Both the position numbers and the translations under genes were made by a program. A DNA stretch of 21,957 nucleotides, taken from positions 1 through 21,957 of the IMG/VR virus record IMGVR_UViG_3300050026_000598. One strand, given 5' to 3'. The notes under the pieces are model-generated. The model saw only the letters and a list, made by a program, of their open reading frames with translations, ran no database searches and had not been told where the DNA came from. Shown one piece after another: positions 979 to 18,556 of the stretch (the stretch's first letter is position 1; each line of letters begins with the position of its first letter). The stretch is from a virus.

Positions 979-999
979 CCCCGACCTCAAAAAATGAAA

Positions 1000-1276: not shown

Positions 1277-1288
1277 AGGAGATCAGCC

Positions 1289-1707: not shown

Positions 1708-1719
1708 GGAGGGTACCCT

Positions 1720-2704: not shown

Positions 2705-2760
2705 GGAGGGGGTTAGCACGTGGAACGCTGGCTAAATAAGATCACATGCAGTTTGATGGT

Positions 2761-2891: not shown

Positions 2892-2928
2892 ACCACCGGA
2901 CTGCACGACCGAAGTAAGGAGGGACCCT

Positions 2929-3606: not shown

Positions 3607-3618
3607 AGGAGAGCTATC

Positions 3619-3975: not shown

Positions 3976-3976
3976 G

Positions 3977-4717
3977 ATGCAGGTAACTGAGCAGGACGTT
4001 AAGAAGCACTCCCCGCAGATACGTAAGATGGCTCATTTCTGGGCTCGAAAATGCTGCCGGCTGGACCTGGAGGACGATCTCTTCCAGGAGGGAATGCTGG
4101 GAATGATCCAGGCATACTTGCCCCTCGACCCAGCCAAGGGATTACCCCCTCAGATTTTTCTAACTGTGCGTAGCCGGATGCAGAGGTTTATTCGGAAAAA
4201 TAACAGCATAGTCGGGCGGTTTGGGGGGAACAAAAACCATCTGGCCGTCATGCGGGGGGAACTCAAAATACAACCCGACATGCAATTTAGCCTATCTGGC
4301 GACCACGAGGAAGCGGGTAGTCCCCATTCATGGCAATCGCCCGGCCCAGCGCCTGACGCCATATTAGAAGAATCCGAGTTGTGCCGTGCCGTCCGTGATG
4401 CCCTGGACCGAGTTATCCAAAATATCGACAACCCAGCCAGGAATGCAGCGTTGGATCGGCTTATCATCGACGAGATATTTCTTTCTGATACGCCAGCGGA
4501 ATACAAACAGATATCCGCGGAGTTGGGTCTGCAACGCCACACGGTAGAAAAATCCGTCAAGTACCTGAAGGACAAACTCAGAGAAGAACTGACTCAATTT
4601 GTAATGGAGACACAAAATAGATGCGACGAGTATGCGATAACTGCGGTTGTGAATTCACTGGCCGCCGTTGCCCCAGGTGCGGATGGTGCCCAAGTTGCGG
4701 CAAAATTAAGTGGATGA
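3977..4717 (+). CDS. Divergent RNA polymerase sigma factor
   Basis: ATG 3977 is preferred to the in-frame ATG at 3848, which would overlap the previous gene by over 120 nt; a GGAG lies at 3967. The product is 246 aa. Residues 31-75 (LEDDLFQEGMLGMIQAY ... IFLTVRSRMQRFIRKNN) match sigma-70 region 2, including the DL.QEG..G...A signature. Residues about 172-205 (EYKQISAELGLQRHTVEKSV) match the region 4 helix-turn-helix. The linker is long and Pro/Ser-rich. It probably directs host RNA polymerase to phage promoters. The last ~35 residues are Ala/Val-rich, overlap another gene in a different frame, and may not be under selection. Confidence 0.8.
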   Translation: MQVTEQDVKKHSPQIRKMAHFWARKCCRLDLEDDLFQEGMLGMIQAYLPLDPAKGLPPQIFLTVRSRMQRFIRKNNSIVGRFGGNKNHLAVMRGELKIQPDMQFSLSGDHEEAGSPHSWQSPGPAPDAILEESELCRAVRDALDRVIQNIDNPARNAALDRLIIDEIFLSDTPAEYKQISAELGLQRHTVEKSVKYLKDKLREELTQFVMETQNRCDEYAITAVVNSLAAVAPGADGAQVAAKLSG

Positions 4718-4755
4718 CCATTTTGTCCTTGACATTCCAAGCTATGTGGAATTAA
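4621..4755 (+). CDS. 44-aa zinc-ribbon protein overlapping the sigma gene
   Basis: ATG 4621 follows GGAGA by 10 nt and reads 44 codons to TAA 4755, in a frame different from the sigma gene it overlaps for about 97 nt. Residues 4-30 are VCDNCGCEFTGRRCPRCGWC followed by PSCGK: seven cysteines in CxxC, CPRCG and CPSCG units, a typical zinc ribbon that chance rarely produces. The last 14 codons run through the promoter-like element at 4722, so the C-terminus (MTILSLTFQAMWN) may simply reflect that constraint. Function unknown; a nucleic-acid-binding accessory role is possible. Confidence 0.65.
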   Translation: MRRVCDNCGCEFTGRRCPRCGWCPSCGKIKWMTILSLTFQAMWN

Positions 4756-4758
4756 TAA
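4722..4758 (+). promoter_or_regulatory. Promoter upstream of the tRNA locus
   Basis: The sequence TTTTGTCCTTGACA carries the left half of the operator palindrome and a perfect TTGACA (4729-4734). The 18-nt spacer contains the inverted repeat TTCCA-N7-TGGAA, and TAATAA (4753-4758) forms the -10. It should drive the tRNA-like element, the tRNA and the phosphoesterase gene. Confidence 0.65.
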
Positions 4759-4781
4759 ACAATCCAGTAGTAAATATTAAT

Positions 4782-4866
4782 GCGAGGGGATGATCCGGGC
4801 GGCACAGGGGATACACGCCAAACGCAGCTCCCTGGACCACGTTCGACTCGTGGCCCCTCGCCCCCA
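4782..4866 (+). ncRNA. tRNA-like element without an anticodon stem
   Basis: GCGAGGGG (4782-4789) pairs perfectly with CCCCTCGC (4854-4861). A perfect T-arm, CCACG-TTCGACT-CGTGG, sits at 4837-4853. ATCC/GGAT (4793-4796 / 4809-4812) forms a D-like arm with a GG-containing loop. The 24 nt between D-arm and T-arm (4813-4836) match the length for an anticodon arm plus short variable loop, but no 5-bp stem can be drawn in any register. An alternative helix, CAGGGG/TCCCTG, would enclose 18 nt. The 3' end reads CCCCA rather than discriminator-CCA. A degenerate tRNA is likeliest, or a mimic that keeps only the acceptor/T half. Confidence 0.55.
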
Positions 4867-4871
4867 CTTTT

Positions 4872-4947
4872 TGCCATATAGCTCAAATGGTAGAGCGCCG
4901 GCCTATTAAGCCGGTCGTTGTCGGTTCGATTCCTGCCATGGCAGCCA
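4872..4947 (+). tRNA. tRNA-Asn (anticodon AUU), CCA encoded
   Basis: Acceptor TGCCATA pairs with CATGGCA (4937-4943) except at the innermost pair. D-arm GCTC-AAATGGTA-GAGC (4881-4896). Anticodon arm CCGGC-CTATTAA-GCCGG (4898-4914) puts T at position 33, ATT at 34-36 and A at 37. The variable loop is TCGTT. T-arm GTCGG-TTCGATT-CCTGC has one C-U mismatch. Discriminator G and CCA are encoded (4944-4947). The length is standard. Anticodon AUU would read AAU (Asn). An unmodified A34 is rare in bacterial tRNAs, where Asn tRNA normally has GUU, so charging identity deserves a check. Confidence 0.85.
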
Positions 4948-4971
4948 ATTAAAAACTTAACTCGGAGGGAT

Positions 4972-6225
4972 ATGGTGCTGACGAAACAAACGCTCGTGGC
5001 GACGGTCTCGGTTTACCACAAGAATAATGACCATCTCACTAATGCTGCCAAAGAGTTGGGTATCGCAAGCAGCACCATGCACCATCGCCTGGAGGTGGCC
5101 GGGGAATTTGGACTAATTGATCGAGAGTTTCTGGTGCCCCCCGTAGACCCTATGGTGATCAAAGAACTCCCTTCCGCCGAAGATCCACTGCCCACTATTG
5201 AGGACATCGCCACCCAGCTCAGCGTTACTCTGAGAAGGAGGGCCGCCCCATTAAGTGAACTAGTAACCGCTTGTTGCGTACCTCTCGGAACGGTTCTCGA
5301 TGCCCTGGATTTTCTCTCCGGCAAGGGTGTCAATGTCCTCCGCATCGGCGATTCTTTCATGATTCCCAACGACCAGAACCCTGGATATGTCGACGGCCCC
5401 GTTGTTGAGTTGGTATCCAGGAAAGACAACACCTTCCTCTTCGGCGCCTTCAGTGATCTTCATGCCGCGTCAAAACATGCCAGATGGGACGTAAGAACCG
5501 ACCTGATCAAACGATGTGAAGCGGCTGGCGCCCAGGCCATATTCGATGCCGGTAACTGGATCGACGGTGAATCCAGGTTCAATAAGTACGACCTAGAAGT
5601 TATTGGGATGCACCAACAATGCGAGTTGCTGGCTGAGAAGCACCCGATAACCGAGATCCCCATTTATGCTGTAGCCGGCGACGACCACGAGGGTTGGTAC
5701 GCCCAAAGGGAAGGCGTAAACATCGGTCTCTATGCTCAGAACATCATGCGAAACGCCGGCCATAACTGGCACGATCTCGGCTTTATGGAGGCCCACGTTC
5801 TCCTGAAGAACTCCAACACCGGGAAGACGGCCACGATGGCTGTAGCGCATCCGGGTGGAGGCTCGGCCTATGCCTTGAGTTATGCATTACAAAAGATTCT
5901 CGAGAGCCTGGAGGGTGGGGAGAAGCCGGCAGTAGGTTTGTATGGACATTTTCATAAGCTGTGGGCAGGGAATATCCGGAACGTATGGGTCATTTCTACG
6001 GGGACCGCACAAGACCAAACCCCATTCATGCGTAAGAAGCGCCTCGAAGCCCACGTTGGCGGAGCTATTGTCGAGTTGGAACAAGACCCGGAAACCGGCG
6101 CCATAATAGCCTGCACACCTAAGCTCATCCGTTACTTTAATCGCAGTTTCTATGCCGGTTCGGGCCGGTGGTCTCATCACGGGAATGTCGTGCAGTTAGA
6201 CAGGTCCATTAACGCGGGGAGGTAG
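4972..6225 (+). CDS. HTH domain fused to metallophosphoesterase
   Basis: 417 aa from ATG 4972; GTG 4975 is equally placed after GGAGGG, and upstream codons lie inside the tRNA. Residues ~15-45 (NNDHLTNAAKELGIASSTMHHRL) are a helix-turn-helix. Residues 78-130 look like a second winged helix. The rest has calcineurin-like phosphoesterase motifs: FSDLH (D162, H164), FDAGNW (D192, N195), AGDDHEGW (236-239, in place of GNHD), AHPGGG (H293) and GHFH (326-328). It is therefore a two-metal phosphodiesterase or nuclease with a DNA-binding front. Phage proteins with this domain sit near replication or packaging genes. The substrate is unknown. Confidence 0.8.
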   Translation: MVLTKQTLVATVSVYHKNNDHLTNAAKELGIASSTMHHRLEVAGEFGLIDREFLVPPVDPMVIKELPSAEDPLPTIEDIATQLSVTLRRRAAPLSELVTACCVPLGTVLDALDFLSGKGVNVLRIGDSFMIPNDQNPGYVDGPVVELVSRKDNTFLFGAFSDLHAASKHARWDVRTDLIKRCEAAGAQAIFDAGNWIDGESRFNKYDLEVIGMHQQCELLAEKHPITEIPIYAVAGDDHEGWYAQREGVNIGLYAQNIMRNAGHNWHDLGFMEAHVLLKNSNTGKTATMAVAHPGGGSAYALSYALQKILESLEGGEKPAVGLYGHFHKLWAGNIRNVWVISTGTAQDQTPFMRKKRLEAHVGGAIVELEQDPETGAIIACTPKLIRYFNRSFYAGSGRWSHHGNVVQLDRSINAGR

Positions 6226-6230
6226 GGGAA

Positions 6231-6350
6231 ATGATTGATCGAATAACTTTTGCTATCAGGTATTGGTTCGCCGGATCTTATTGGAAAGACGCCTGGTACA
6301 TCGCCGGTCTCCTCACCTTCAGAGACACAAAGAATCGACGTCGCCGATGA
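6231..6350 (+). CDS. Small aromatic/basic protein, 39 aa
   Basis: ATG 6231 follows GGGAGGTAGGGG and reads 39 codons to TGA 6350, which overlaps the next ATG (ATGA). The product (MIDRITFAIRYWFAGSYWKD then AWYIAGLLTF and a basic tail ending RRRR) is rich in Tyr, Trp and Phe. It could be an amphipathic or membrane-associated peptide. No family recognised. Coupling to both neighbours supports it as a real gene. Confidence 0.6.
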   Translation: MIDRITFAIRYWFAGSYWKDAWYIAGLLTFRDTKNRRRR

Positions 6351-6571
6351 AACTCTTCGACCCCAAACGGTCCCTCACTGTAGTCGAGAGATATGAATGC
6401 TACACCTATGGCGGAGTCCTGGCGGCGGCCGATATGTTTGGCTATACGCTACGGAGTTACGGAGTTGCTCCGCTGCATTACGAGAAGGGCACGATGCTTT
6501 TCCAGGTATTCCATACGGAGCCCTGCAACATCACCCTTTCCTGGAGTTACGAGCCTAAAGCCCATGGGTAA
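6347..6571 (+). CDS. Hypothetical protein, 74 aa
   Basis: ATG 6347 overlaps the previous stop and is preferred to the in-frame start at 6263, which would overlap the upstream gene by 88 nt. The product starts MKLFDPKRSLTVVERYECY and is beta-rich and aromatic. No motif recognised. Its stop TAA (6569-6571) lies inside the first codons of the HNH gene. Confidence 0.6.
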   Translation: MKLFDPKRSLTVVERYECYTYGGVLAAADMFGYTLRSYGVAPLHYEKGTMLFQVFHTEPCNITLSWSYEPKAHG

Positions 6572-6899
6572 AAAATTACAGAATACACCTCGCAGCAAAG
6601 TGCGCTCCGCCCTCCGGCAGTTATTCCTCCGAAGTCGGGAGCGGGCCGCATGTTTGAAAGCGGCTGAATATAAATGTGCAAGGTGCGGAGTTAAGCAATC
6701 AAAGGCAAAGGGGCGCGAGGTATTGGTGGAAGTCCACCATAAAGATGGGATTCTGCACTGGGACCAACTCATAGACTTGATCTATGTCGAGTTGCTCTGT
6801 GACCCGACCAAGATGGAGACTTTATGTGTCACCTGCCATAAGGGAGGACACAAAGAGGAAGAAAATGCCCAGGAAGAAGAAAGAAGAAAAGCCTCCTGA
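6564..6899 (+). CDS. HNH endonuclease-like protein
   Basis: ATG 6564 overlaps the preceding gene by 8 nt. The 111-aa product has a basic helical N-terminus, CARCGVKQSKAKG (first zinc CxxC), EVHHKDGILHWDQLID (the His-His of the HNH core), LLCDPTKMETLCVTCHKGGH (second Cys pair and final His) and a charged tail. This is the layout of free-standing phage HNH proteins, which often sit beside terminase genes. Some of these assist terminase cleavage; others are homing enzymes. Position immediately before terS favours a packaging role, by inference. The 3' end overlaps terS by 35 nt. Confidence 0.8.
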   Translation: MGKKLQNTPRSKVRSALRQLFLRSRERAACLKAAEYKCARCGVKQSKAKGREVLVEVHHKDGILHWDQLIDLIYVELLCDPTKMETLCVTCHKGGHKEEENAQEEERRKAS

Positions 6900-7458
6900 A
6901 GTCCCGGATGACGCTCAAGTCCAAGTGGTTGACCTCACTTCCCATAACCCTGCGCTCGAATATAAGAAAATGAAAAACGAGCGCAAGGGCAGAACACCTG
7001 GGACGAAGGTGGAGTTTTCCCCTGACGGCATACCCGTTAAGCAACTGATGGTAATGAAAAATCTCATCGACGGGCAGACCCAGGAAATGGCTGTGCGTAA
7101 CGCCGGGTACCAGGTAGCGACCGCGAACACCGCGGAGCACATGGCGGGGGCTATTAGGAAAAACCTTCACGACAGATTGCAGGCCGCGGCCGAAGCACAA
7201 GGGTTAACGGCGGAATACCTCATAGGTGTGCTCCTGGAGAACACGAAAGCCGTGAAGCATGAAAGGATCGGCAAGGACGTCTTCAAGGCTGTTCCGGATA
7301 CTCACGAGAGGACCGTGGCGGCAGACGTGGCCCTGGACGCGCTTGGGATGAAGGCCGCCAAACAGGTGGACGTGAACAATAAATTCAGCTTCGATCTTTG
7401 GGTAAACAAGCAGCATGGAATTGAATTCGGCGGAGAGGAAGACGCGATAGATGTCTAA
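6865..7458 (+). CDS. terS: Terminase small subunit
   Basis: 197 aa from ATG 6865, preceded by GAGGAAG; the in-frame codon at 6784 would overlap the HNH gene heavily. A basic N-terminal tail (MPRKKKEEKPPE) is followed by a helical DNA-binding region: residues ~55-105 (VKQLMVMKNLIDGQTQEMAV ... AGYQVATANTAEHMAGAIRKN) resemble the HTH of small terminases that choose and cut DNA ends. LTAEYLIGVLLENTKAVKHE ... ERTVAADVALDALG resembles the central oligomerisation helices of this family. The stop overlaps the TerL start by 8 nt, the usual TerS-TerL pairing. It recognises phage DNA and hands it to TerL. Confidence 0.85.
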   Translation: MPRKKKEEKPPEVPDDAQVQVVDLTSHNPALEYKKMKNERKGRTPGTKVEFSPDGIPVKQLMVMKNLIDGQTQEMAVRNAGYQVATANTAEHMAGAIRKNLHDRLQAAAEAQGLTAEYLIGVLLENTKAVKHERIGKDVFKAVPDTHERTVAADVALDALGMKAAKQVDVNNKFSFDLWVNKQHGIEFGGEEDAIDV

Positions 7459-10400
7459 GCCCATCAAGAAACTTCCCGCTCCGATCCTCGAGGAAGCACT
7501 TCCTCCTTCCGGCGCCGAAGCCCCCTCCAGAGAAAAAATGGAGAAGCTGTGCCAGCTATACCTCGACGACTTCCTTCGATTCGCCGGCCGGGTCCTGAAG
7601 GTCCAAAGTATCGATGGGAAGATCCTGCCCCTGATATTCAACCGGCCACAGAAAGTCCTACACAGCATCGTGGAGAGTATCCACGCTCAAGGCCGACCAG
7701 TAAGACTCATTGCGCTCAAGGCTCGACGGATGGGCTTCTCGACATACTTCTCGGCACGTAATTACCACAAGACCTCCTGGAATCCCAATCGATACGCAAC
7801 ACAGGTGACACATGAGCCAGAAGCTACTGACGCCCTCTTCAAAATGGTCAAAAGATTTTACAATTTCACTCCGGAATGGATTCGACCTTCAACCCTGTAC
7901 AATAATACTAAACTCCTGGAATTTAACACCAAGGATGGTAAAGGCCTTAACTCGGGATTTCGTGTTGCGACAGCAGAGAAGGATGATTTTGGCTCGGGCC
8001 AATTAATAAACTTCTTGCATCTTTGTATGCATCCCAACACAAGAGTCCTCACGGGACACGGAAGAGAAAAACGGATAGCTGACTTGCAAGTTGGAGATCC
8101 CGTGTTGACTCATCTTGGGAATCCGGGCCGAGTATCGGCAATAAGCAGGATACCCAGTGATACATTGCCTGGAGGCACTACAGCAATCTCCATCCACCCT
8201 TGGCTGGGGAACGAGGTCATCATGACGCCCCAGCATAAAGTGTTCACCAATCTTGGGTGGATGGAAGCTGGAGATTTAGACTCCAAACTACATCTAGTGT
8301 CCATGCCAGTCCGGTCCATAACCAAAAATACAACCCACTTGGAAGTTGATAACAGACATCGGGATAGGATAAGAGTCCCACATAACGGGCTCGGCCGGGT
8401 GGGTCCCAATACATTCCCCCTGAACGAGGAAACCGGATTCTTCGTTGGCTACTACCTGGCGGAAGGTTGTGTCTCTGGGAATACTCCAAACGGTCCATCC
8501 AGAATAATCTTTACTCTCCATAGGGACGAAGATGCTTACGCGCAACGTGCTTGTGATGCGGTAGCGGCTTATTGCAAATGCCCTCCTAAAACAAGGAATA
8601 GACCGGGGACGTCAACAAGGAATTTCAACTTAGATAGTGTCTCTTTGGCAGGGATGGTTGACAGATATTTCGGCCGAACGGATCAAAAACATATCCCCGA
8701 TTGGGTCTTTGACGCGGGTCCAGACTTTTGCAGGGGTCTTGTGGCAGGATACCTTTCTGGTGATGGGTCAAAGAGTCTTGGCGGCGCCCACCAAGGCTAC
8801 ACCAGCAACTCTATCTGCGCTTCAAGCATCCGCGAATCCCTCACTTACCAGGTTCGGGATCTTGTGGCGTCGCTCGGTTATGGCTGGGGCGGGATAACAT
8901 ACCGGGATGGTGGAAATTTCTACGGCAGGGACTGTAAGCCGCAATGGACTGTATTTTTTAACGGCGAATGCGGATATCGACTCAGAGAATTGCTTGGGTT
9001 GCCGAGAGGGGGGCCGCTTACAGAAAGGTCCAGACGAGGACAACGGTACACTCTGGACTTGCAGAAAGGATTCGTGTGGTTAAGAATTAAAAAAATTACC
9101 AAGACCACTTGTGATGACTTCTACGATATAGAGGTAGACCACGAGGACCATAGTTTCCGCACTGCTCACTTTTCGGTAAGCAACTCAGAAGTTAGTAAAT
9201 ATCCTACGCAGAATATCCAGAGCCTTTTAACCTCCATTCTGCAGTGCGTTCCGGATGGATTGGAAAACGAGATCGTCTTTGAGTCAACCGGGAAGGGTAT
9301 CGGCGGGGAGTTCTACGATAGATTCTGGGCAGCACGTTACCGAGCATGGGTAGACCGACAGGACGAAAACGGAAGCCCCCTGGTGAAGCATACGGTCAAC
9401 GAGGACGCGGACCCGGACAACAATTACACGGCAGTCTTCCTGCCCTGGTTCATCTTCGAGTTATACGAGTTAAAACCTCTGCCCGGTTTCGAGTTAACCA
9501 AGGAAGAAAAAGAAATCAAGATCAGGTACAATCTTCGGGACGGTCAGATTTACTGGCGCCGGGTTACGATAGCAAATAAGTGTAATGGGAGTATTGAGAC
9601 CTTTCAGCAAGAATATCCAGCAACTCCGAGTGAGGCGTTTTTAGGTACCGGCCGCCCGGTTTTCGACGTAGCCAAGATTCAGGCGCTAATGCTGGCCGCT
9701 CCGAATCCGATTGCGCGTTACGAGTGCCTGACCGGCGTCCGGCAGTGGATGAGTAAAGAAGATGGCCGGCTCCAGGTGTGGGAGGAACCTAAACGCGGGA
9801 CCCACTACATCGTGTCGGCTGACGTAGCCGAGGGTCTGGCTCACGGAGATTTTTCATGTGCGGATGTGATCGAGCATTTAACTGGAAAGCAAGTAGCCCA
9901 CTGGCACGGGAAATGCCTCGCCCCTGGCACTAAAATATTAACTCCAGGCGGATTCAAGAATATCGAGAACATCAAGATAGGAGATCATGTCTGGACTCAC
10001 ATGAACAGGTTCAGAAGGGTGACTCAAACATACAAAAGGGACTACTCCGGAGATTTAATGGAGATCCGCGCACAGGGAAACTACGAAACCGTGCGCGTCA
10101 CGCCGGACCATCCCTTCCTGGCTGCTGATTACGCCAAAGTGCCTTACCGAAAAGAGCGTTACTACCGAAAAAATCGACAATGCTGGGACACGAAAGTTAT
10201 TAAACACCTGGAAATTTCTGGACTCAGATGGGACACTGCCGCCGACCTCAAGGCCGTGGCTATTCCGAGGTCGAGATATTCGGCTGCTCCACACAGCTTC
10301 ACGATCAAACGCGCGATAAACGGCGAACGCTTCCGGGACGATTCTGTAAAACGCGGATATTGCAAATGTGGGTGTGGCAGACAAACCCCTGTTCGGAATA

Positions 10401-11659
10401 GAAATAATAAGCGTTTAGGGTGGGTCAGGGGCGAGCCTTGCGACTTTATCTTGGGGCACATTCGTCCGGTTGTAACAACGAGAGAAATAACAGTTGATGC
10501 GGATTTCGCTACAATACTGGGCTACTATGGCTCCGAGGGGTCCATTGGATACAGACGTGAAGATGGAGACCCAGATCGAGTTTGTTTTAGCTTCGGTTGG
10601 CACGAAGAGCACACACTTGGCGCGGATTGCATTGATCGACTAAGAAGAATGGGATTTAACCCAACGGTTAAAAAGCCCTCTAGTGCCTACGTGGTATCAC
10701 TGGCGGACAAAAACTTCGCAGAGTTGCTATTGTTATTATGTGGGGATGGAGCGTCCCGGAAGCAATTACATCCCGGCGTCTTGGAGTGGCCCGATGCTCT
10801 CTTGAGTGCTTTCCTGGACGCTTATTTAGACGGGGATGGAACAGTTTACCAACAAGACGGGTCGATCATCCATTCGATAACTACTACTTCCCCGGCCATG
10901 GCTCGCCAATTAAGGGACATTAGCCTATGGTTGGGGAATCGGCCACGGGTAGAGCGAATCCTGCCGGGGACCATGGCGGCTGGTGTTAAAAGTATAATGC
11001 CTCGTTTCAATATCAAATGGGTTGTCTCTGACCGGGTTAAATATAAAGGCATGGGGGATTGTGAAGCTGAGGCATACAAGGTAAAAAAGAAGACGGTACA
11101 CTACAGTGGTCCCGTATACAACCTAGAGGTGCATGAGGACAACTCCTATTCCACTGGTTGTTATGTGGCGCACAACTGCGATGCCGACGAATTTGGCGTG
11201 ATACTGATGTGTCTTGCCAAAAGATATAACGAAGCGTGGCTGGTTCCCGAGCGGAACAACCATGGCCTTACGACAGTGACGGTTATTGTTAACGAGGACT
11301 ATCCGAAGGTTTACTGTGAGATGATCCCGGAGCCTCCAGGTAGACCGCGTAAACGCTACGGTTGGCTTACGAACGGCGCTACGAGGCCGCTGATAATCGA
11401 TGGGCTCATAAAGGAGATCCGGGAGGGCACTCACGGGATAGTGTGCAAGGACACCTTCAACGAGATGATGTCATTTAAGATCCAGAGCAACGGCAAGCTG
11501 GAAGCCGATAGCGGGCGCTTTGACGACCGAGTCCTTTCCCTGTCTATCGGGAAACACGTCAGGAATTTTCTGGAGCTCCCTTCGGCCGGCCTTCCGGACC
11601 ATTACAAGAAGCAGCACAGAACGGGGAACAGACGAGTAAACCATAACCGGTGGACATAA
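7451..11659 (+). CDS. terL: Terminase large subunit precursor with two inteins
   Basis: 1402-residue precursor; removing both inteins leaves 594 residues, a normal TerL length. The ATPase half has a variant Walker A, LIALKARRMGFST (residues 86-98), and a Walker B, INFLHL|SEVSKYP, split by intein 1 (residues 192-578). Intact motor features resume with FESTGKGIGGEFYDRFW. The nuclease half (RNase H-like) shows SADVAEGLAHGDFSCADV with the first catalytic Asp, then VAHWHGK|CDADEFG split by intein 2 (822-1242), and VPERNNHG. TerL packages DNA into the prohead through the portal and cuts it. Because each intein breaks a key motif, the enzyme cannot be active until both are removed. Confidence 0.93.
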   Translation: MSKPIKKLPAPILEEALPPSGAEAPSREKMEKLCQLYLDDFLRFAGRVLKVQSIDGKILPLIFNRPQKVLHSIVESIHAQGRPVRLIALKARRMGFSTYFSARNYHKTSWNPNRYATQVTHEPEATDALFKMVKRFYNFTPEWIRPSTLYNNTKLLEFNTKDGKGLNSGFRVATAEKDDFGSGQLINFLHLCMHPNTRVLTGHGREKRIADLQVGDPVLTHLGNPGRVSAISRIPSDTLPGGTTAISIHPWLGNEVIMTPQHKVFTNLGWMEAGDLDSKLHLVSMPVRSITKNTTHLEVDNRHRDRIRVPHNGLGRVGPNTFPLNEETGFFVGYYLAEGCVSGNTPNGPSRIIFTLHRDEDAYAQRACDAVAAYCKCPPKTRNRPGTSTRNFNLDSVSLAGMVDRYFGRTDQKHIPDWVFDAGPDFCRGLVAGYLSGDGSKSLGGAHQGYTSNSICASSIRESLTYQVRDLVASLGYGWGGITYRDGGNFYGRDCKPQWTVFFNGECGYRLRELLGLPRGGPLTERSRRGQRYTLDLQKGFVWLRIKKITKTTCDDFYDIEVDHEDHSFRTAHFSVSNSEVSKYPTQNIQSLLTSILQCVPDGLENEIVFESTGKGIGGEFYDRFWAARYRAWVDRQDENGSPLVKHTVNEDADPDNNYTAVFLPWFIFELYELKPLPGFELTKEEKEIKIRYNLRDGQIYWRRVTIANKCNGSIETFQQEYPATPSEAFLGTGRPVFDVAKIQALMLAAPNPIARYECLTGVRQWMSKEDGRLQVWEEPKRGTHYIVSADVAEGLAHGDFSCADVIEHLTGKQVAHWHGKCLAPGTKILTPGGFKNIENIKIGDHVWTHMNRFRRVTQTYKRDYSGDLMEIRAQGNYETVRVTPDHPFLAADYAKVPYRKERYYRKNRQCWDTKVIKHLEISGLRWDTAADLKAVAIPRSRYSAAPHSFTIKRAINGERFRDDSVKRGYCKCGCGRQTPVRNRNNKRLGWVRGEPCDFILGHIRPVVTTREITVDADFATILGYYGSEGSIGYRREDGDPDRVCFSFGWHEEHTLGADCIDRLRRMGFNPTVKKPSSAYVVSLADKNFAELLLLLCGDGASRKQLHPGVLEWPDALLSAFLDAYLDGDGTVYQQDGSIIHSITTTSPAMARQLRDISLWLGNRPRVERILPGTMAAGVKSIMPRFNIKWVVSDRVKYKGMGDCEAEAYKVKKKTVHYSGPVYNLEVHEDNSYSTGCYVAHNCDADEFGVILMCLAKRYNEAWLVPERNNHGLTTVTVIVNEDYPKVYCEMIPEPPGRPRKRYGWLTNGATRPLIIDGLIKEIREGTHGIVCKDTFNEMMSFKIQSNGKLEADSGRFDDRVLSLSIGKHVRNFLELPSAGLPDHYKKQHRTGNRRVNHNRWT
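8024..9184 (+). mobile_element. Intein 1 in TerL (LAGLIDADG type)
   Basis: 387 residues inserted between HL and SEV of Walker B. It begins with Cys1 (CMHPNTRVLTG, block A). Block B is TPQHKVF (Thr68, His71). Two LAGLIDADG motifs, FFVGYYLAEGC (139-149) and GLVAGYLSGDG (238-248), carry the acidic residues of an active homing endonuclease. The C-terminus reads DFYDIEVDHEDHSF (block F) and ends VSN, followed by Ser+1. The residue before the final Asn is Ser where His is usual, so Asn cyclisation may use a different helper, probably the block F histidines. All parts are intact and in frame. Confidence 0.93.
9914..11176 (+). mobile_element. Intein 2 in TerL (LAGLIDADG type plus Cys-rich module)
   Basis: 421 residues between HGK and CDADEFG of the nuclease domain. 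Block A is CLAPGTKILTPGG (Cys1). Block B is VTPDHPFL (Thr63, His66). LAGLIDADG motifs are ATILGYYGSEG (199-209) and AFLDAYLDGDG (299-309). The end is VYNLEVHEDNSY ... VAHN followed by Cys+1, so the splicing chemistry is canonical. Residues ~148-184 (YCKCGCGRQTPVRNRNNKR then GWVRGEPCDFILGH) form a Cys/His module that I associate with phage HNH homing nucleases, lying between the splicing half and the first LAGLIDADG motif. It probably aids DNA recognition. Confidence 0.93.
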
Positions 11660-11662
11660 GGA

Positions 11663-11881
11663 ATGAGGCGCCTACACCATGCACCAGGTATCAGGAATAG
11701 GGATATAGGGCGCTTCGCCAAGAGGACTAGATACTGGTGTTGGGGGTGCGATGCCAACCACGTCGCCCCAGGCGCAACCTGCTCGCGTTGTGGATGCCGT
11801 GAAGATTCCAAAAAGCGAAGATACCGACAACCCATTCAGGACAACCATCGATGGCGGCCCCATCCTTGGGATGACTTTTAA
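11663..11881 (+). CDS. Zinc-ribbon protein after TerL, 72 aa
   Basis: ATG 11663 lies 3 nt after the TerL stop; an in-frame TAA just upstream excludes an earlier start. The AAGGA site almost touches the ATG, which is suboptimal. The product is basic, with YWCWGCDANHVAPGATCSRC then GCRED and KKRRYRQP: a CxxC ... CxxCG zinc ribbon of a kind found in small phage proteins next to packaging genes. Partner and role are unknown. Confidence 0.65.
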   Translation: MRRLHHAPGIRNRDIGRFAKRTRYWCWGCDANHVAPGATCSRCGCREDSKKRRYRQPIQDNHRWRPHPWDDF

Positions 11882-11886
11882 AAAAT

Positions 11887-12026
11887 AGCTGCCGGGGAGA
11901 CAAAGAGTATGCGCACAGCCCACCCTGCAGGGCAATCAGCGCCGGACTGATCCCGAGAAGAGCGCATTGGATCACGGATGGCGGCCCGATTCGTAGGCCT
12001 TAAACCCACGCAGGGCGGCAGCTTTT
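11887..12026 (+). ncRNA. Candidate three-way-junction RNA
   Basis: Closing helix AGCTGCC (11887-11893) pairs with GGCAGCT (12017-12023) and is followed by TTTT. Inside, ATGCGC (11909-11914) pairs with GCGCAT (11962-11967), enclosing a hairpin ATCAG-CGCCGGA-CTGAT (11935-11951) extended by GGG/CCC across a 2-nt bulge. A third arm is GGCC-CGATTCGTA-GGCC (11983-11999). Together they form a closed ~137-nt structure with three helices meeting near the base. A competing pair is CCCTGC (11923) with GCAGGG (12010). Possible roles are a small RNA, an RNA thermosensor or terminator, or a packaging-related RNA. None can be assigned from sequence. Confidence 0.5.
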
Positions 12027-12028
12027 CA

Positions 12029-12085
12029 TTTTGTCACCAAAAGGGCTATTTTGTCCTTGACAAAACTTGGAGTTTGTGATAAGGG
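12029..12085 (+). promoter_or_regulatory. Head-operon promoter with full operator palindrome
   Basis: A half-site TTTTGTC (12029-12035) precedes, by exactly 20 bp, the perfect palindrome TTTTGTC-CTT-GACAAAA (12049-12065). The palindrome contains TTGACA (12057-12062). A spacer with AAACTTGGAGTTTGTGA leads to a weak -10, TAAGGG (12080-12085). It is the likely control point for the portal-capsid operon. The poor -10 suggests an activator or the phage sigma factor may be needed. Confidence 0.65.
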
Positions 12086-12129
12086 TAGCGTCAATAAACT
12101 ACCATTGGGAAGTTTTTACCTCTTCAATA

Positions 12130-12256
12130 GGGAGAACGTCATGTAACCGAACCGATCCAAAATGTTTGAAGGCTAAAACCGACAACCCAAGGATGGGGGA
12201 GCGTAGGCATAACGACCCTTAGTGGCGTAGACCGAAACTCCCCGTCAGTATTTTGG
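12130..12256 (+). promoter_or_regulatory. Structured leader with start-stop codon pair
   Basis: A well-spaced GGGAGA (12130-12135) is followed by ATG directly joined to TAA (12141-12146), a minimal ORF. Downstream, CCAAAAT (12157-12163) pairs with ATTTTGG (12250-12256), and within it GGGGAG (12196-12201) pairs with CTCCCC (12238-12243). The nested helices and start-stop element suggest leader-based control of the head operon. The trigger is unknown. Confidence 0.4.
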
Positions 12257-12316
12257 CGCATTTGCAGCTTTAAATTTTCCCCTGCCTGGTGAGCAGTCAG
12301 CACTACGGAATATCGC

Positions 12317-12490
12317 ATGAGCAATGACAGCATCTCAGTAGTGCTTCTCAATAATGACGGTAGACAACAAATAACCACGCTTCTGAAGCGGTTAGGCATT
12401 CTCCCTGAGAAGCTGACCGCCAAGGTAATCCTCCACTGCGTCAACGGGCAAATTGGTGGCGTGGAGTTGGGCAACATAAAGATAGGCTGA
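12317..12490 (+). CDS. Small hypothetical protein, 57 aa
   Basis: ATG 12317 reads 57 codons to TGA 12490. The product opens MSNDSISVVLLNNDGRQQI, has a basic helix (TTLLKRLGILPEKLTAK) and ends ILHCVNGQIGGVELGNIKIG. The final strand pattern, V-hydrophobic ... NGQI..VE, resembles very small phage or bacterial proteins with an 'IQDGRVVQIE'-like ending, a loose similarity only. The ribosome binding site is weak (ACGGAAT), so translation may depend on the structured leader. It is followed by a strong hairpin terminator. Amino-acid composition favours a real gene. Confidence 0.55.
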   Translation: MSNDSISVVLLNNDGRQQITTLLKRLGILPEKLTAKVILHCVNGQIGGVELGNIKIG

Positions 12491-12533
12491 CAGGGCATTT
12501 CGTAATCGGGGCGATCCCCCGACCTAGACCCAC

Positions 12534-12584
12534 GAAACCCCAAACTGACGGTTGAACACCGTTGGCTTGGGGTTTCCTCATTTT
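12534..12584 (+). terminator. Strong hairpin, probable intrinsic terminator or attenuator
   Basis: GAAACCCCAA (12534-12543) pairs perfectly over 10 bp with TTGGGGTTTC (12567-12576). A second inner stem, ACGGT/ACCGT, sits in the loop, and CTCATTTTA follows. The T-run is short and displaced, so partial read-through into the portal gene, which begins 12 nt later, is likely. A smaller hairpin CGGGG-CGAT-CCCC precedes it near 12507. Confidence 0.7.
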
Positions 12585-12595
12585 AGGGAGACTCG

Positions 12596-14821
12596 GTGTC
12601 GGCAATCCCCACAGATACCCCAGGCGTAAGCAGTCTCGGTCTGGTCAAAATCAGAAACAACGATGCGCTCGCGGCGGAAGAAGCGGCAAGACAGGCGGCC
12701 CTCGCCTCAGCCGACGCCCCTCCAGATCTGCCCGGCCTAACGAGTTACCTCAAACATTGTTGGGCTATGGCCCGGCAAGCCAAGATCCCCATTGAACAGC
12801 AGATGCTCATAAACCTCCGTCAGCGTTACGGGATTTATGAGAACGATATCGCAGCACGTATTGAGCAGATGGGCGGCTCCGCCGTCTATGTAATGCTCAC
12901 CCTCACTAAATGCCGAGCGGCCGAAGCCTGGATAAACGATATTCTCCGTCCAGTAGCCGATAGGCCATGGGGCATCAAACCATGCCCAATCCCCGAGCTA
13001 CCCGACGATATTGCGAAACAGATCCGGATGCAGACATTCTCCGTCCTGCAGGAGCTGCAGCAGCAGTTGATGTTAGCGGGGATGTCCGGAGTCCCGATTA
13101 CACAAATTCAGGAAGAACTCCAGAAATACGAAGAGGACCTCCAGGACGAAGCCCAGCACAACATCTTAATGGAAGCCGAACGCCGAGCTGACCGCATGGC
13201 CGATAAGATCGACGATCAACTTATGGCCGGCGGATGGGCCGAAGCGTTTTGGGCGGTGATCTCCGATCTTGTAACTCTCAAGGCTGCAATCCTCAAGGGG
13301 CCTGTAGTCAGGCGGAGAAAGCAACAGAAGTGGGAACAAGACCCGGCCAGTCAGCAATGGCAGGTTCAGGTTGAAGAAACCCTCATCCCGGAGTTTGACA
13401 GAGTTAGCCCGTTTGACGCCTACCCGGAGCCAGGTTCAACATCGTTTGATGACGGATATTTCTTTGAGCGCCACATGCTCACTCGCGCCGACCTGGAGTC
13501 GATGATCGGCGTACCCGGTTTTTCGGAATCCGCCATAAGATCGGCCCTCGAGGATTACGGGAAAAAAGGGTATCGCACCATCCTGCCTACCGATAGTCAA
13601 CTTCTCTTAATGTTTACGGGAAGCACTCTCGGATTGATGGATGAATACAAAATCGAGGCCCTGGAGTTCTGGGGCTCAGCTCAAGGGAGCGATCTGATTG
13701 ATTGGGGTCTGCCCAAAGACGGTATCGATCCCCAGCTTAACTATGACATCAATGCGTGGCTCATTGGTAATTACACGATCCGCGCTATCATAAATCCCGA
13801 TAGACTCGGCAGAAAGCCATATTCAAAGGACAGTTTCGAGAGAATCCCCGGCGCCTGGTGGGGCAAAGGTCTCCCGGAGTTAATGGCTGATCTGCAGGAC
13901 GTTTGCAACGCGGTAGCCCGAGCGATTGTAAATAATTGCTCGCTCGCATCCGGCCCCCAGGTCGAAATAAACATCGAGAGATGCAAGGACGCCGAACAAA
14001 TCTATCCCTGGAAGATATGGGAATCCACTAACAAACAAATGCTCGACGGGCCTGCCATTAAGTTCTGGCAGCCACAGTTAATAGTCGCAGACCTCATGCG
14101 GGTCTATGAGACTTTCGCCAACATGTCGGATGACCAGACCGGCGTTCCGCGGTGGAGTTACGGGACGACGAACGTGGGCGGAGCGGGTGGAACGAGTTCC
14201 GGTTTGTCCATGCTCATGACGTCTGCATCCCGCAGTATCAAGGAAGTTATCTCACATCTTGATAAGATCGTGGGGGAAACCATCTCCCGGACGTATGACT
14301 TCAATATGATGTACGATCCGGACGAGAATATCAAGGGTGATGCGAAAATCATAGCACGCGGCAGCACGAGCCTTCTCGCCAAAGAACAGCTTCTTGTTCG
14401 AGTCCAAGAGTTCCTGGATAAGACGAATAACCCCGTGGACAACCAGATCATCGGCATCGAGGGAAGGGCCAAGTTACTCAGAGCGGCCGCGAAGATGCTG
14501 GAGATCGATGTCGACGACATCCTGCCCAGCTCCAAAGAAGAGCTCCAGGAGCTTGTCGACAAGATCCATCAGGCCGAACAGGAAAAGACGCAAATGATGA
14601 TGATGACGCAAGGAGCAAGCGGTCTCCCCCCCGGACCACTCCCGCCTGGCGCAATTCCTCAAACGGGTGGACCTCCTCCTTCCGCACCGGGCTCCCTCCC
14701 TCCGGCTCCGTGGAAGGGGGCACCACCTGCACAGAATCCCCAGTCATTGGATAACGCTGGCAATCCGGCCGGTGGTGTCAATCATAACGTATTCCAGAAT
14801 CGACCGGGAGTTACGCCTTGA
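12596..14821 (+). CDS. Portal protein
   Basis: 741 aa from GTG 12596, 8 nt after AGGGAG. The portal is the dodecameric ring at the prohead vertex through which TerL drives DNA. The size, position between terminase and scaffold, and helical middle (MADLQDVCNAVARAIVNNCS; SYGTTNVGGAGGTSSGLSML; EVISHLDKIVGETISRTYDF) match large P22/N4-type portals. The N-terminal third has long charged helices. The C-terminal ~100 residues turn Met/Gln-rich and then Pro/Gly-rich (PPGPLPPGAIPQTGGPPPS), probably a disordered tail facing the head interior. The final residues RPGVTP and the DNA encoding them recur at the end of the next gene. Confidence 0.88.
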   Translation: MSAIPTDTPGVSSLGLVKIRNNDALAAEEAARQAALASADAPPDLPGLTSYLKHCWAMARQAKIPIEQQMLINLRQRYGIYENDIAARIEQMGGSAVYVMLTLTKCRAAEAWINDILRPVADRPWGIKPCPIPELPDDIAKQIRMQTFSVLQELQQQLMLAGMSGVPITQIQEELQKYEEDLQDEAQHNILMEAERRADRMADKIDDQLMAGGWAEAFWAVISDLVTLKAAILKGPVVRRRKQQKWEQDPASQQWQVQVEETLIPEFDRVSPFDAYPEPGSTSFDDGYFFERHMLTRADLESMIGVPGFSESAIRSALEDYGKKGYRTILPTDSQLLLMFTGSTLGLMDEYKIEALEFWGSAQGSDLIDWGLPKDGIDPQLNYDINAWLIGNYTIRAIINPDRLGRKPYSKDSFERIPGAWWGKGLPELMADLQDVCNAVARAIVNNCSLASGPQVEINIERCKDAEQIYPWKIWESTNKQMLDGPAIKFWQPQLIVADLMRVYETFANMSDDQTGVPRWSYGTTNVGGAGGTSSGLSMLMTSASRSIKEVISHLDKIVGETISRTYDFNMMYDPDENIKGDAKIIARGSTSLLAKEQLLVRVQEFLDKTNNPVDNQIIGIEGRAKLLRAAAKMLEIDVDDILPSSKEELQELVDKIHQAEQEKTQMMMMTQGASGLPPGPLPPGAIPQTGGPPPSAPGSLPPAPWKGAPPAQNPQSLDNAGNPAGGVNHNVFQNRPGVTP
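14799..14817 (+). repeat. 19-bp gene-end repeat, copy 1
   Basis: ATCGACCGGGAGTTACGCC is identical to 15080-15098. Here it encodes the last portal codons (RPGVTP) and its GGGAG serves as ribosome binding site for the TTG start at 14818. The same DNA is therefore both C-terminus and translation signal. Confidence 0.85.
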
Positions 14822-15102
14822 GTATCCCGTTATTCGTTACAGCCAGCGGCAACTACCCGTATTACATCGGGGCAGTTGCCCTACGGGCCGAGCGCAAAGA
14901 CCTCCATGGTGTCCCCGGCTACAGGGTTTTGAATGAGGACGACGAGTGGGGGTGGATACCGGCCGAACGGTTTGAGAGACATTTTCGAGAGTTCGGGCAC
15001 AACTACTGCGGAACGATGATGGCCTGCAAGAAATCTGCCGAGGGAGTCGAGAACGCAATCAAGGAAACCAAAGTGAAATATCGACCGGGAGTTACGCCAT
15101 AA
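14818..15102 (+). CDS. Small head-module protein, 94 aa
   Basis: The start is TTG 14818, overlapping the portal stop, with GGGAG at standard spacing; no better in-frame start exists nearby. The product begins MSIPLFVTASGNYPYYIG and contains GYRVLNEDDEWGWIPAERFE, a Trp/Pro/Phe-Glu pattern I have seen in small phage proteins of unknown role. It ends KYRPGVTP like the portal. It sits between portal and scaffold, so a head-assembly or accessory role is plausible. The stop TAA overlaps ATG 15102 (TAATG). Confidence 0.7.
   Translation: MSIPLFVTASGNYPYYIGAVALRAERKDLHGVPGYRVLNEDDEWGWIPAERFERHFREFGHNYCGTMMACKKSAEGVENAIKETKVKYRPGVTP
15080..15098 (+). repeat. 19-bp gene-end repeat, copy 2
   Basis: Identical to 14799-14817, in the same reading frame relative to its gene (RPGVTP), and again supplying GGGAG for the next start (ATG 15102, 11-nt spacing). 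The spacing between copies is 281 bp, the length of the intervening gene. Confidence 0.85.
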
Positions 15103-15359
15103 TGACCGATCTGCGTCTACTGGAAACACTCAACGCAATGCGAGGCGGTGAATACCTCAAGCATCTTGCTGATCAGCAGGCGAGCGTTCATGAATCCATG
15201 GCGAGTGCGGCCGATGAAGTCCAGTTACGTTGGCTCCAGGGAAAATCGCAGTTACTCATGGAGTTGGCCGGCGAGATTGTCGACTCGGAGAAAAACCTGT
15301 CCGAAGCCATAGTGAGAGAGAGAAAAGGCGATAAGAAAGAGCGTAAAGCATTTATTTAG
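15102..15359 (+). CDS. Helical head-module protein, 85 aa
   Basis: ATG 15102 overlaps the previous stop. The sequence is almost all helical and charged (MTDLRLLETLNAMRGGEYLK ... LRWLQGKSQLLMELAGEIVD ... RERKGDKKERKAFI). Its place between portal and scaffold and its size resemble small accessory head proteins, but no motif proves a function. A strong hairpin follows the stop. Confidence 0.7.
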   Translation: MTDLRLLETLNAMRGGEYLKHLADQQASVHESMASAADEVQLRWLQGKSQLLMELAGEIVDSEKNLSEAIVRERKGDKKERKAFI

Positions 15360-15364
15360 GCTGA

Positions 15365-15391
15365 AAATCCCTACCCACTGGTAAGGGATTT
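15365..15391 (+). promoter_or_regulatory. Intercistronic hairpin before scaffold gene
   Basis: AAATCCC-TACC pairs with GGTA-(A)-GGGATTT around a CACT loop: 11 bp with one bulge. No T-run follows, so it is more likely an RNA-processing or stability element than a terminator. Confidence 0.5.
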
Positions 15392-15468
15392 ACAACCCTC
15401 CGACACTGCCATGCAGCCGGAGGAAATAAGGGAGACCGTCAAGGCGGCCCCAACGGAAAAGAGATCGC

Positions 15469-16437
15469 ATGTACGAGGATCCTGTAAAAAGAACTGAACG
15501 AGAGATCGACGAACTCATTGCTTTGCAGAAGGCAGAGTTTCCCCCTCTTGAGGCTGCGCCCGAACCGGATACCGCAGACATAGGCCCGGACGGTGGAGTC
15601 GAAAAGGTGGAAGGTGAGCCCCAAGCGAAGCCCGTGGAAGCGAAACCTGTACCTGTAGAAGATCCCAATTCGGATACTTTTAAAGCCCGATGGGAGACCT
15701 TGCAGGGCAAGTACACCTCGGAACTCGGTAGAGCGAACACCGAGATCAGGCGCCTTGCCACTGAAGTTACGAAACTCCAGCAGCAAATGGTGGCCGCACC
15801 TAAGCCGGCCGAAGCCAAACCAGCGAGCGTAGAAGAAGCTCTCGACACCCTCGAGCAAGAATATGGTCAGAAGTTTGTCCAGGCCATGGACGCGAGGGTC
15901 GGCAAACTTGTCGACGGCAAGCTGGATGAGCGCCTGAAGCCCGTTCAGGAAAGGGTCGCTCAGTACGAAACTCAGAACGCACAGACCGCACAGTCGACGT
16001 ATGAGACGGAGCTTACCCGCCTCTGCCCCGGCTGGCGCACCCAGGATAATGACCAGGGATTCATCGACTGGATCGGCACAAACAGGATCGGTCTGAAGTC
16101 CATTCAAGACCTTCTGGTTGAAGCCCACCAGACCCGAAATCCCCAGGCGGTAGCCGACATCTTTAACTGGTACTCGAGAAGTCAGCCCGCACCTCAACCA
16201 GACCCTAAACCCAACCCGGCACCGGGAAAACCCACTCCTGAAGCCTTGATAGTCCCTAACGCCAAAGGCAGTGGCGACCATGCCAAGATCGAGGCCAGCC
16301 AAGGCAAGACAATCACTATGGCCCAGATTGACGCATTCTACAAGCGCATGGAGCTTGGAAAAGTGGATGCCAAGGAAGCCGCAGCTTTTGAAGCGGAGAT
16401 ACACAAGGCCAACATGGAAGGGAGAATAACCGGGTAG
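15469..16437 (+). CDS. Head scaffolding protein
   Basis: 322 aa from ATG 15469, after GGAAAAGAG. The protein is acidic, Glu/Lys/Ala/Pro-rich and mostly helical. A Pro/Glu-rich N-terminal third (EAKPVPVEDPNSD) is followed by a coiled-coil stretch (ELGRANTEIRRLATEVTKLQ), a globular segment (CPGWRTQDNDQGFIDWIGTN), a Pro-rich hinge (QPAPQPDPKPNPAPGKP) and a helical C-terminus (TITMAQIDAFYKRMELGKVD). This layout and its position directly before the major capsid gene are typical of scaffolds that guide prohead assembly and are then removed. Confidence 0.85.
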   Translation: MYEDPVKRTEREIDELIALQKAEFPPLEAAPEPDTADIGPDGGVEKVEGEPQAKPVEAKPVPVEDPNSDTFKARWETLQGKYTSELGRANTEIRRLATEVTKLQQQMVAAPKPAEAKPASVEEALDTLEQEYGQKFVQAMDARVGKLVDGKLDERLKPVQERVAQYETQNAQTAQSTYETELTRLCPGWRTQDNDQGFIDWIGTNRIGLKSIQDLLVEAHQTRNPQAVADIFNWYSRSQPAPQPDPKPNPAPGKPTPEALIVPNAKGSGDHAKIEASQGKTITMAQIDAFYKRMELGKVDAKEAAAFEAEIHKANMEGRITG

Positions 16438-16456
16438 CCATAAGAAAGGGGACATT

Positions 16457-18556
16457 ATGTCTCAAGTTCCTTCCGCCGCAGGATATCCTATTGGCGGGTC
16501 AAGTGCGGGTAGTAAGTATACTCCCGTAATTTATGCCAAGAAACTTTTGGTCAAGTTTTATTTAAAGACGGTTTTTGGCGAAATCGCTGGTATTACGGCT
16601 ACTTAGCCGACGGTTGGCGATTTAAAATCGGGTGAATTGCTGGAAGCCTGAAATGGTAATCAGCAGCCAAGCCAAGAGAAAGGCAGAGAGTATCTTGGAA
16701 GGTTCAGAGACTAGAGGGATGAGTAGCCTAGCAATAAATTCCTCCACGAGCGCCCGGCCTCCCATTGGGAGTGATGATATAGTCCGAGCTTACGGGAAGA
16801 AAACCGTAAGAACCATAGGACAAAGAACCTATGGGATAACAATACTAAACCGTGATTATGAGGGTCTCTATTAAATGATAATGGCTCTCAATAAACCGAG
16901 TGAATTGCTGGAACACCCTAACGTAAAGCCGAGGGCAATCAGCAGCCAAGCCGACCGGAAACGGGCGGAAGGTTCAACGACTAGGACATGGAGCCTAAGT
17001 CCGCAAGGATATGGCGGTAAAGTCCCACGAGCGCCCGGTGATGATTTTTGTCTTGACAAATGCAATACAAGGGCGATATGTTCATTCCAAGTTGGAAGTT
17101 TAATACAATCCGATAAGGAGTTGACCATGTTGCCACGAAAGTTTTTTGCCACGCCGGAAGAGTTGGAAGAAACGTACCTTACCCTTGGATCGATGAAGGC
17201 CACGGCAGATTATTATGGTGTCTCGAAGAGGCTGATCCTGAACAAGATGAATCAGTTCGGGATCAAACGATGCTTCGAGAGAGAACCCATGGATCGCTGG
17301 AAGGAAGTTGTCGGATTTTTTGCAATGCTCGGTTTGAAGAGCCAAGAGATAGCCGGACGGCTTCAACTCAGTGTTCCTTATGTTCTGAAAATAGCCCGCA
17401 CCTTTGATATTGAGATCCAGGACAACTTCCATGTTGGCTTTATCACCACTCACAATGGATACAAGCTCGTAAAATGTGAGGGACATCCGAAAGCCAACAA
17501 AGATGGATATGTTCGAGAACACCGGCTTGTGATGGAGGAAAAACTCGGTAGATATCTTACTGACGAAGAAATCCCCCATCACATCAATGGCGATAAACTG
17601 GACAATAGGCCCGAGAACCTGGAACTCTTCGCTACCCTGGGAGAGCATACGTCCTTCCACCATTCGGGCAAGTCAAGATCTGAATCATTGAAGAGATAGT
17701 CTGGTCTTACGGGAAACCGTAAGGAGCCCCGGATAAAGAGCCGGGGACGCAAACAAAAACGGAAATCAAAAATATGGGGGATAAAGTTTACATCCGTACT
17801 ATCCCCGATGTGACCGTGTTCGACTATGAAAAGGGCATGGATCTGACCTCCAAACGTCAGACCCCCGAGAGCAACGCCGTCGAGTTGGACATCAGCCAGG
17901 CGAAAGCCTACTCGATTGCCATAGACGACATCGACAAATTGCAATACGACCTGAACATGCTCGACGAATGGGCGCGTGACGGTTCTGAGCACATGGGTAT
18001 CGCCATTGATAGAACCATCCTCAATGGTATGTATACCAGCGCCGATTCAACCAACACCGGCCTTACGGCTGGCGCGGTATCCGCAGGGTACAACATGGGC
18101 GTTACCGCAACACCTGTTGCCCTTACCCGCAGCAACATCCTGGATTATATCGTGGATGCGGGCAGTATCCTTTCCGAGAACAACATCCCCATGAATGATC
18201 GGTGGATGATCCTTCCGGAATGGGCAACGGGACTCATCAACAAATCGGATATGAGAAGCGCCCTTTTCACCGGAGACTCGAGCAACCAGAACCTTCGGAA
18301 CGGCAAAATCGGGATGATCTCCAACTTCACAATCTACAGCTCGAACAACCTTATCCCTGTGACCGACACGTACCAGTGCTTCAATATCCCCTTCGGCCAG
18401 AAGAACGCACTCACTTTCGCGTCTCAGTTGGTCAAGAACCGCGTACTTGAGCTGCAGAATACCTTCGGGACCGTAATGGAAGGTCTCCAGGTATACGGCT
18501 ACAACGTTAATAAGCCGACCGCAATGGGCGTTCTTTACGCCTACAAGGCCACGTAA
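16457..18556 (+). CDS. Major capsid protein, three exons (N4-gp56-like)
   Basis: Exons 16457-16588, 16848-16865 and 17762-18556 join in frame to 314 aa. Exon 1 starts at an ATG behind AGGGG and encodes YPIGGSSAGSKYTPVIYAKK ... TVFGEIA. Exon 2 encodes only NRDYEG. Exon 3 continues EIKNMGDKVYIRTIPDVTVF. The join restores the NTDYEG.I...GDKV.IRT signature of N4-gp56-type capsid proteins. Unspliced message would stop at TAG about five codons into intron 1, so all capsid protein depends on removal of two introns. Restart at ATG 17774 would miss the N-terminus. The protein forms the icosahedral shell. Confidence 0.88.
16589..16847 (+). mobile_element. Group I intron 1 in capsid gene (ORF-less)
   Basis: 259 nt. 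P1: exon AAATCGCT pairs with GGCGATTT (16616-16623), with the U-G pair at the splice site. P10: ACGGTT (16610-16615) pairs perfectly with exon 2 AACCGT. Core segments GTGAATTGCTGGAA (16632), AATCAGCAGCCAAGCC (16658), P7 GACTA (16709 area) with TAGTC, and CCACGAGCGCCCGG (16744) are present, with a P8 hairpin CTCCCATTGGGAG, P9 CTTACGG/CCGTAAG and P9.1 CCATAGG/CCTATGG. This is a phage IA-type layout. With these boundaries the last intron base is A rather than the expected G. Ending at G16835 instead would add ITIL to the protein and lose P10. Confidence 0.85.
17047..17097 (+). promoter_or_regulatory. Promoter inside intron 2
   Basis: TTTGTC-TT-GACAAA (17047-17060) is a near copy of the phage operator and contains TTGACA (17053-17058). 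After 18 nt, TATGTT forms a -10 (17077-17082). The palindrome TTCCAAGTTGGAA (17085-17097) covers the probable transcript start. It allows the nuclease gene to be expressed independently of the capsid message. Confidence 0.6.
17127..17699 (+). CDS. Intron-encoded HNH homing endonuclease
   Basis: ATG 17127 is chosen because AAGGAG (17115-17120) is ideally placed; an earlier in-frame ATG at 16875 would translate the intron core. 190 aa. The N-terminal half has two HTH-like segments (KATADYYGVSKRLILNKMNQ; KSQEIAGRLQLSVPYVLKIA), probably for site binding. The C-terminal half has GYVREHRLVMEEKLGRYLTD then EEIPHHINGDKLDNRPENLE, the canonical HNH core with His-His and Asn, and a final HTSFHH. It likely cleaves intron-less capsid genes near the exon 2 region and drives homing of intron 2. 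Confidence 0.9.
   Translation: MLPRKFFATPEELEETYLTLGSMKATADYYGVSKRLILNKMNQFGIKRCFEREPMDRWKEVVGFFAMLGLKSQEIAGRLQLSVPYVLKIARTFDIEIQDNFHVGFITTHNGYKLVKCEGHPKANKDGYVREHRLVMEEKLGRYLTDEEIPHHINGDKLDNRPENLELFATLGEHTSFHHSGKSRSESLKR

Follow-up and report, generated by a model that had tools for sequence, protein, structure and literature searches.

A phage capsid gene interrupted by two group I introns around an 18-nucleotide exon, the upstream intron ending in A

Layout of the interrupted capsid gene

The window, meaning the whole stretch of DNA analysed here, is an IMG/VR virus record of 21,957 bases consisting of a single metagenomic contig. It carries a capsid gene in three exons separated by two predicted group I introns, of which the second contains a homing endonuclease gene and the first none. 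The features referred to below, all on the plus strand, are as follows.

16457..16588, plus strand: capsid exon 1, 44 codons, ending ...GEIA with T as last base (gap-free alignment to five intronless relatives, spliced alignment)
16589..16847, plus strand: intron 1, group I, 259 nt, without endonuclease gene, ending in A (Rfam RF00028, 64.7 bits)
16610..16621, plus strand: internal guide of intron 1 (ACGGUUGGCGAU), with P10 half ACGGUU and P1 half GGCGAU
16776..16784, plus strand: P7 3' strand of intron 1, G-C subtype (Rfam alignment, P7 pair analysis)
16847..16847, plus strand: last nucleotide of intron 1, an A where G is usual
16848..16865, plus strand: capsid exon 2, 18 nt, AACCGTGATTATGAGGGT, coding for NRDYEG (alignment of relatives, guide pairing, spliced alignment)
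16866..17761, plus strand: intron 2, group I, 896 nt, ending in G, with the HNH gene inside (Rfam RF00028, 68.9 bits)
16884..16890, plus strand: internal guide of intron 2, GCUCUCA, forming a 7-bp P1 with UGAGGGU and a U·G pair at the splice site
17127..17699, plus strand: HNH homing endonuclease gene, 190 aa (Pfam HNH_3, E 5.5e-11; PHROG 7545, E 7.5e-21)
17762..18556, plus strand: capsid exon 3, from EIKNMGDKV... to the stop (gap-free alignment of relatives, spliced alignment)

Both introns match the Rfam group I model RF00028 above its gathering score, the first at 16549-16809 (64.7 bits, E 1.4e-14) and the second at 16847-17723 (68.9 bits, E 7.8e-16), each covering the catalytic core P3-P9 across positions 1-253, the full model. 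The HNH gene follows an AAGGAG ribosome-binding site just upstream and lies, by the Rfam alignment, in the P8 loop. The boundaries of both introns were set by guide pairing together with spliced alignment. When the exons 16457-16588, 16848-16865 and 17762-18556 are joined, they read in frame as a 314-aa protein that belongs to the phage major head protein family PHROG 267 (E 6e-47) and scores above the Pfam Phage_capsid_2 cut-off. Five IMG/VR relatives with 62-80% identity are intronless, all read FGEIANRDYEG and align with no gaps at either junction; across the 18 bases that correspond to exon 2 they depart from the window at 2-5 positions, all silent, so that 5/5 encode NRDYEG. Among 162 uninterrupted homologues this motif ranks with the most conserved parts of the capsid protein (N45 99% and G50 100% conserved), a ranking biased by the motif itself having been among the retrieval seeds.

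Spliced protein-to-DNA alignment with four relatives, using a program written for this analysis and run with and without a penalty of 4 on introns having a non-G end, returned identical boundaries in 8/8 runs. Tried on other capsid genes with no end rule, the program gave one G-ending intron each in L193, L096 and L050; in L053 it added a spurious extra intron, and its boundary missed the obvious T/G pair by one base. A 30-nt version of exon 2, using the G at 16835 and adding ITIL, was rejected, the insert being absent from all relatives and leaving no P10. As far as sequence comparison can establish it, the interruption of the capsid gene by two group I introns around an 18-nt exon is confirmed. 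The initial annotation, which had predicted two group I introns, an exon coding for just NRDYEG and junctions that would restore the capsid signature, is thus borne out by the covariance matches, the gap-free relatives and the spliced alignments, and the U·G pair it had placed at each 5' splice site is present.

Elsewhere in the window, a terminase large-subunit gene (7451-11659, 1402 aa) apparently contains two inteins, indicated by matches to Hint and LAGLIDADG near residues 192-575 and 820-1230, so that the head module combines two introns with, probably, two inteins. A tRNA gene (53.5 bits) lies at 4872-4944.

Guide pairings and the end of intron 1

The internal guide of intron 1 pairs at 12/12 positions with the joined exons (AUCGCU/AACCGU), forming a 6-bp P1 and a 6-bp P10 with the U·G pair exactly at the splice site, a match found in 10/20,000 shuffled versions of the intron. 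When the junction was slid from -9 to +12, only k=0 combined 12/12 pairing with a T ahead of the splice site; at k=-1 the protein is unchanged, but C precedes the junction and the intron would end in T. Rfam places P1 of this intron differently, starting at 16549, from the guide-based placement adopted here. The DNA pattern GGCGAT...GGTGAATTGC, used to look for further introns sharing the intron 1 site, gave no match. In intron 2, the P1 helix folds with z -3.9; no convincing P10, an element that is common but not universal in group I introns, was found there, and the L053 intron, at the same site, offers 2 bp only. The P9 and P9.1 hairpins fold well in both introns (z -7.7 in intron 1, z -3.8 in intron 2), and the stretches between the P7 5' strand and the P3 3' strand, the place of P7.1/P7.2 in IA2, form stems of z no better than -1.9 and -1.4. 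Both introns have the G-binding pair in P7 (GACUA / UAGUC), with a neighbouring covarying pair that is G-C or A-U.

Terminal G is near-universal in group I introns, and the A at the end of intron 1, overlooked by the initial annotation, is the most interesting point of the case. In relatives a conserved TAAC precedes the terminal G by a few bases, and in most of 23 other introns a G lies at about +5 to +7; in intron 1, position +7 is A and the earliest G is that at +12. Judged from these alignments and pairings, the terminal A does not look like an artefact of a misplaced junction. The arrangement that would give intron 1 its usual G extends exon 1 to 16593 (GGTAT) and begins a 13-nt exon 2 at 16853, yielding GEIAGIDYEG and predicting that GGTAT is joined to TGATTATGAGGGT. 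Such a junction retains both the T preceding the 5' splice site and a 3'-terminal G, stays in frame, costs just 14 score units relative to the model without a G penalty (1224 vs 1238) and is picked by the spliced alignment once the non-G penalty reaches 16. However, it swaps the conserved N45 and position 46, which is R or T in nearly all relatives, for GI, it loses most of the P1/P10 pairing (the best alternative being 9/12, inside the core), and it draws on a G at +12 after TAAC, beyond the usual range in relatives; we regard it as highly unlikely.

The P1/P10 test applied to the introns of L193, L096 and L050, which also lie in the capsid motif, gave 6/5, 6/5 and 6/6 bp, all of them G-ending at k=0. 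P10 often lies one base out of register, which made a blind P1+P10 predictor, applied to about 60 further introns, too noisy to survey terminal bases. Several apparent non-G ends, those of L100 and L122 and, as placed by its reading frame, that of L051, become G after a one-base shift.

A different explanation places the anomaly in the data, the true population having G at 16847 and the A being an assembly or sequencing (consensus) error or a minor variant. The window is a single contig and no near-identical contig was retrieved, the nearest being about 80%, which leaves room for such an error. Against it stands another A-ending group I intron, intron 4 of a many-intron phage capsid gene (L305 positions 2972-3248), which is common to four contigs from different metagenomes (L305, L306, L309 and L339) and in all of them ends in ATATTA before TTCATAGCA; the L343 intron at the same site ends in G. 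A Coxiella intron without terminal G has also been published, to go by a title that PMC3428280 cites, and introns of this kind therefore exist. An error at 16847 seems unlikely.

Taking A as the genuine end of intron 1, its G-binding pair in P7 is normal, and therefore nothing seems to compensate within the active site; exon joining, the second step, is probably slower than usual and would lean on the strong P10. Terminal G is among the most constant features of group I ribozymes. A capsid mRNA, needed in very large amounts, that relied on an A-ending intron would show a 12-base guide match carrying exon joining without it.

Ancestry of the two introns and the capsid motif as a landing site

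The initial annotation had read three identical core blocks as a sign that the two introns are related by duplication or that one invaded next to its relative. The blocks are real, but one of them, AATCAGCAGCCAAGCC, occurs in at least 119 viral stretches and so marks an intron subtype, not a recent copy. Core identity between intron 1 and intron 2 is 61%, a value reached by 23% of pairs among 100 distinct cores of this subtype, and the two introns rank as the 21st and 33rd nearest of each other in a core ranking for which introns were picked mostly by one core block and of which relative closeness alone was used. Compared as whole introns with the endonuclease gene removed, intron 1 shares 72% identity with the intron of L096 and 67% with that of L050, intron 2 shares 67% with that of L053, located at exactly the intron 2 site, and the two share 60% with each other. 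Across 199 distinct cores, the two bases before GACUA covary with the base after UAGUC (AC/U in 142, GA/C in 48); intron 1 is of the GA/C type, as are L096 and L050, and intron 2 is of the AC/U type.

Tandem duplication, in which one intron copied itself next door, would account for the core blocks common to both. It is very improbable given a core identity that random pairs reach so often, P7 pairs of different type in a set where A-U and G-C covary, a nearer intron for each in another phage's capsid gene, and guides and 3' tails that are unrelated. With closer kin in the capsid genes of other phages and different P7 types, separate acquisition of both introns is better supported than duplication, so far as sequence relationships can tell.

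Five other same-family capsid genes carry a single group I intron each, and their positions fall within the same motif. Intron 1 of the window lies before N, the introns of L193 and L096 between D and Y, those of L050 and L084 between Y and E, and intron 2 of the window and that of L053 between G and E. The L193 intron contains an endonuclease-like frame which, judged by eye, has a LAGLIDADG look. Conserved coding sequence is an established target of mobile introns (PMC3984707), and the capsid motif is a repeated landing site, with introns at four positions within 18 bp in different phages. The HNH endonuclease of intron 2 probably drives homing into the conserved motif, and intron 1 may be carried along as a passenger of intron 2 homing.

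Exon joining and comparison with known systems

The reading that we favour, with a probability of about 0.88, is that two independently acquired introns 18 nt apart would both be spliced out as ribozymes, exons 1, 2 and 3 being joined in frame. Both would fold as ribozymes and leave the capsid mRNA, the guide of intron 1 gripping exon 1 at its end through a 6-bp P1 and exon 2 at its start through a 6-bp P10, and the guide of intron 2 gripping exon 2 at its end through a 7-bp P1. Exon 2 is accordingly divided into 6 nt for P10 of intron 1 (nt 1-6), a 5-nt spacer and 7 nt for P1 of intron 2 (nt 12-18), with no overlap. As these grips do not compete, pairing gives no reason for a fixed splicing order, which weakens the earlier suggestion that the double role of exon 2 constrains it. 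With non-overlapping grips of 6+5+7 nt, the 18-nt exon would make two adjacent ribozymes a ready test of how independent neighbouring group I introns are.

The position of the pairings on different parts of exon 2, together with the unrelated guides, favours inclusion of exon 2 over skipping. If some of the mRNA skipped exon 2, as happens with Twort orf142 and SIOphi, the resulting capsid protein would be six residues shorter; 18 nt preserves the frame, paired phage introns are known to undergo skipping (PMC10136302, PMC11878797), and the terminal A may slow intron 1. The duplex on guide 1 nevertheless has -18.3 kcal/mol at the inclusion junction and -8.1 at the skipping junction, the end of exon 1 reaches only -2.5 kcal/mol on guide 2, and the residues lost would be nearly invariant, all of which makes partial skipping rather unlikely. 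In tandem Tetrahymena introns, differing splice-site recognition elements favour inclusion (PMC10136302), and the intron pair of the window has such differing elements.

The 18-nt exon is short, as the initial annotation noted, yet its rarity was overstated, and it is not the shortest. Published exons between group I introns measure 23 nt in Twort and 34 nt in Coxiella (PMC10136302), and other uncultured phages have predicted exons of 5-10 nt. When closely spaced introns were sought by pattern, 17 viral stretches emerged. Several of them contain arrays of 8-12 Rfam group I introns, located in the capsid gene of relatives of Synechococcus phage S-CBWM1, for which spliced alignment predicts exons of about 5, 8 and 10 nt; in S-CBWM1 itself the capsid gene is uninterrupted. 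The S-CBWM1-like capsid gene is split by about 10-12 group I introns in L305, L306, L309, L339, L336 and L343 (some of these being the same contigs as L288, L290, L295, L296 and L298), one such contig measures 279 kb, and intron content among these relatives ranges from 0 to about 11. In the viral contigs L069, L079, L066, L027 and L086, one gene region likewise holds two to four group I introns near one another, with longer exons.

Gene interruption of this kind is known, and the capsid gene described here illustrates it clearly, in a testable and slightly odd form. In Staphylococcus phage Twort, introns 2 and 3 of the structural gene orf142 (tail tube) likewise flank a very short exon, of 23 nt (PMC10136302, PMC11878797); the orf142 introns are highly similar and show exon skipping, whereas those of the window are not close kin, have different guides and enclose 18 nt of a capsid gene. 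The Bastillevirinae phages phiNIT1 and SIOphi likewise have several group I introns per gene, with a small exon between introns in phiNIT1 and exon skipping in SIOphi, and the passages of PMC11878797 that deal with them place the introns in reductase, polymerase and terminase genes and make no mention of a terminal-A intron. The capsid gene of mycobacteriophage LittleE, like that in the window, contains an endonuclease gene within an intron, there a group I-like one that splices efficiently in vivo and has U before it and G at its end (PMC3706429); LittleE has one intron and no micro-exon, in contrast to the two introns found here.

A parallel to the terminal A comes from Coxiella. That the A of intron 1 is a selected brake on exon joining, with intron 2 removed first or the capsid mRNA maturing late and the unusually strong P10 coming to the rescue, is an unlikely proposition; were it true, the occurrence in both systems of an intron pair around a short exon, with one member lacking terminal G, would be convergence. 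The Coxiella intron without terminal G is reportedly the upstream one, ends in A and still self-splices. As in the window, two group I introns there surround a short exon, of 34 bp, and one is without the canonical terminal G according to the title of Raghavan 2007 cited in PMC3428280. The Coxiella pair belongs to subgroups IB2 and IA3 and interrupts a bacterial rRNA gene (PMC10136302), whereas the pair in the window interrupts a protein gene of a phage.
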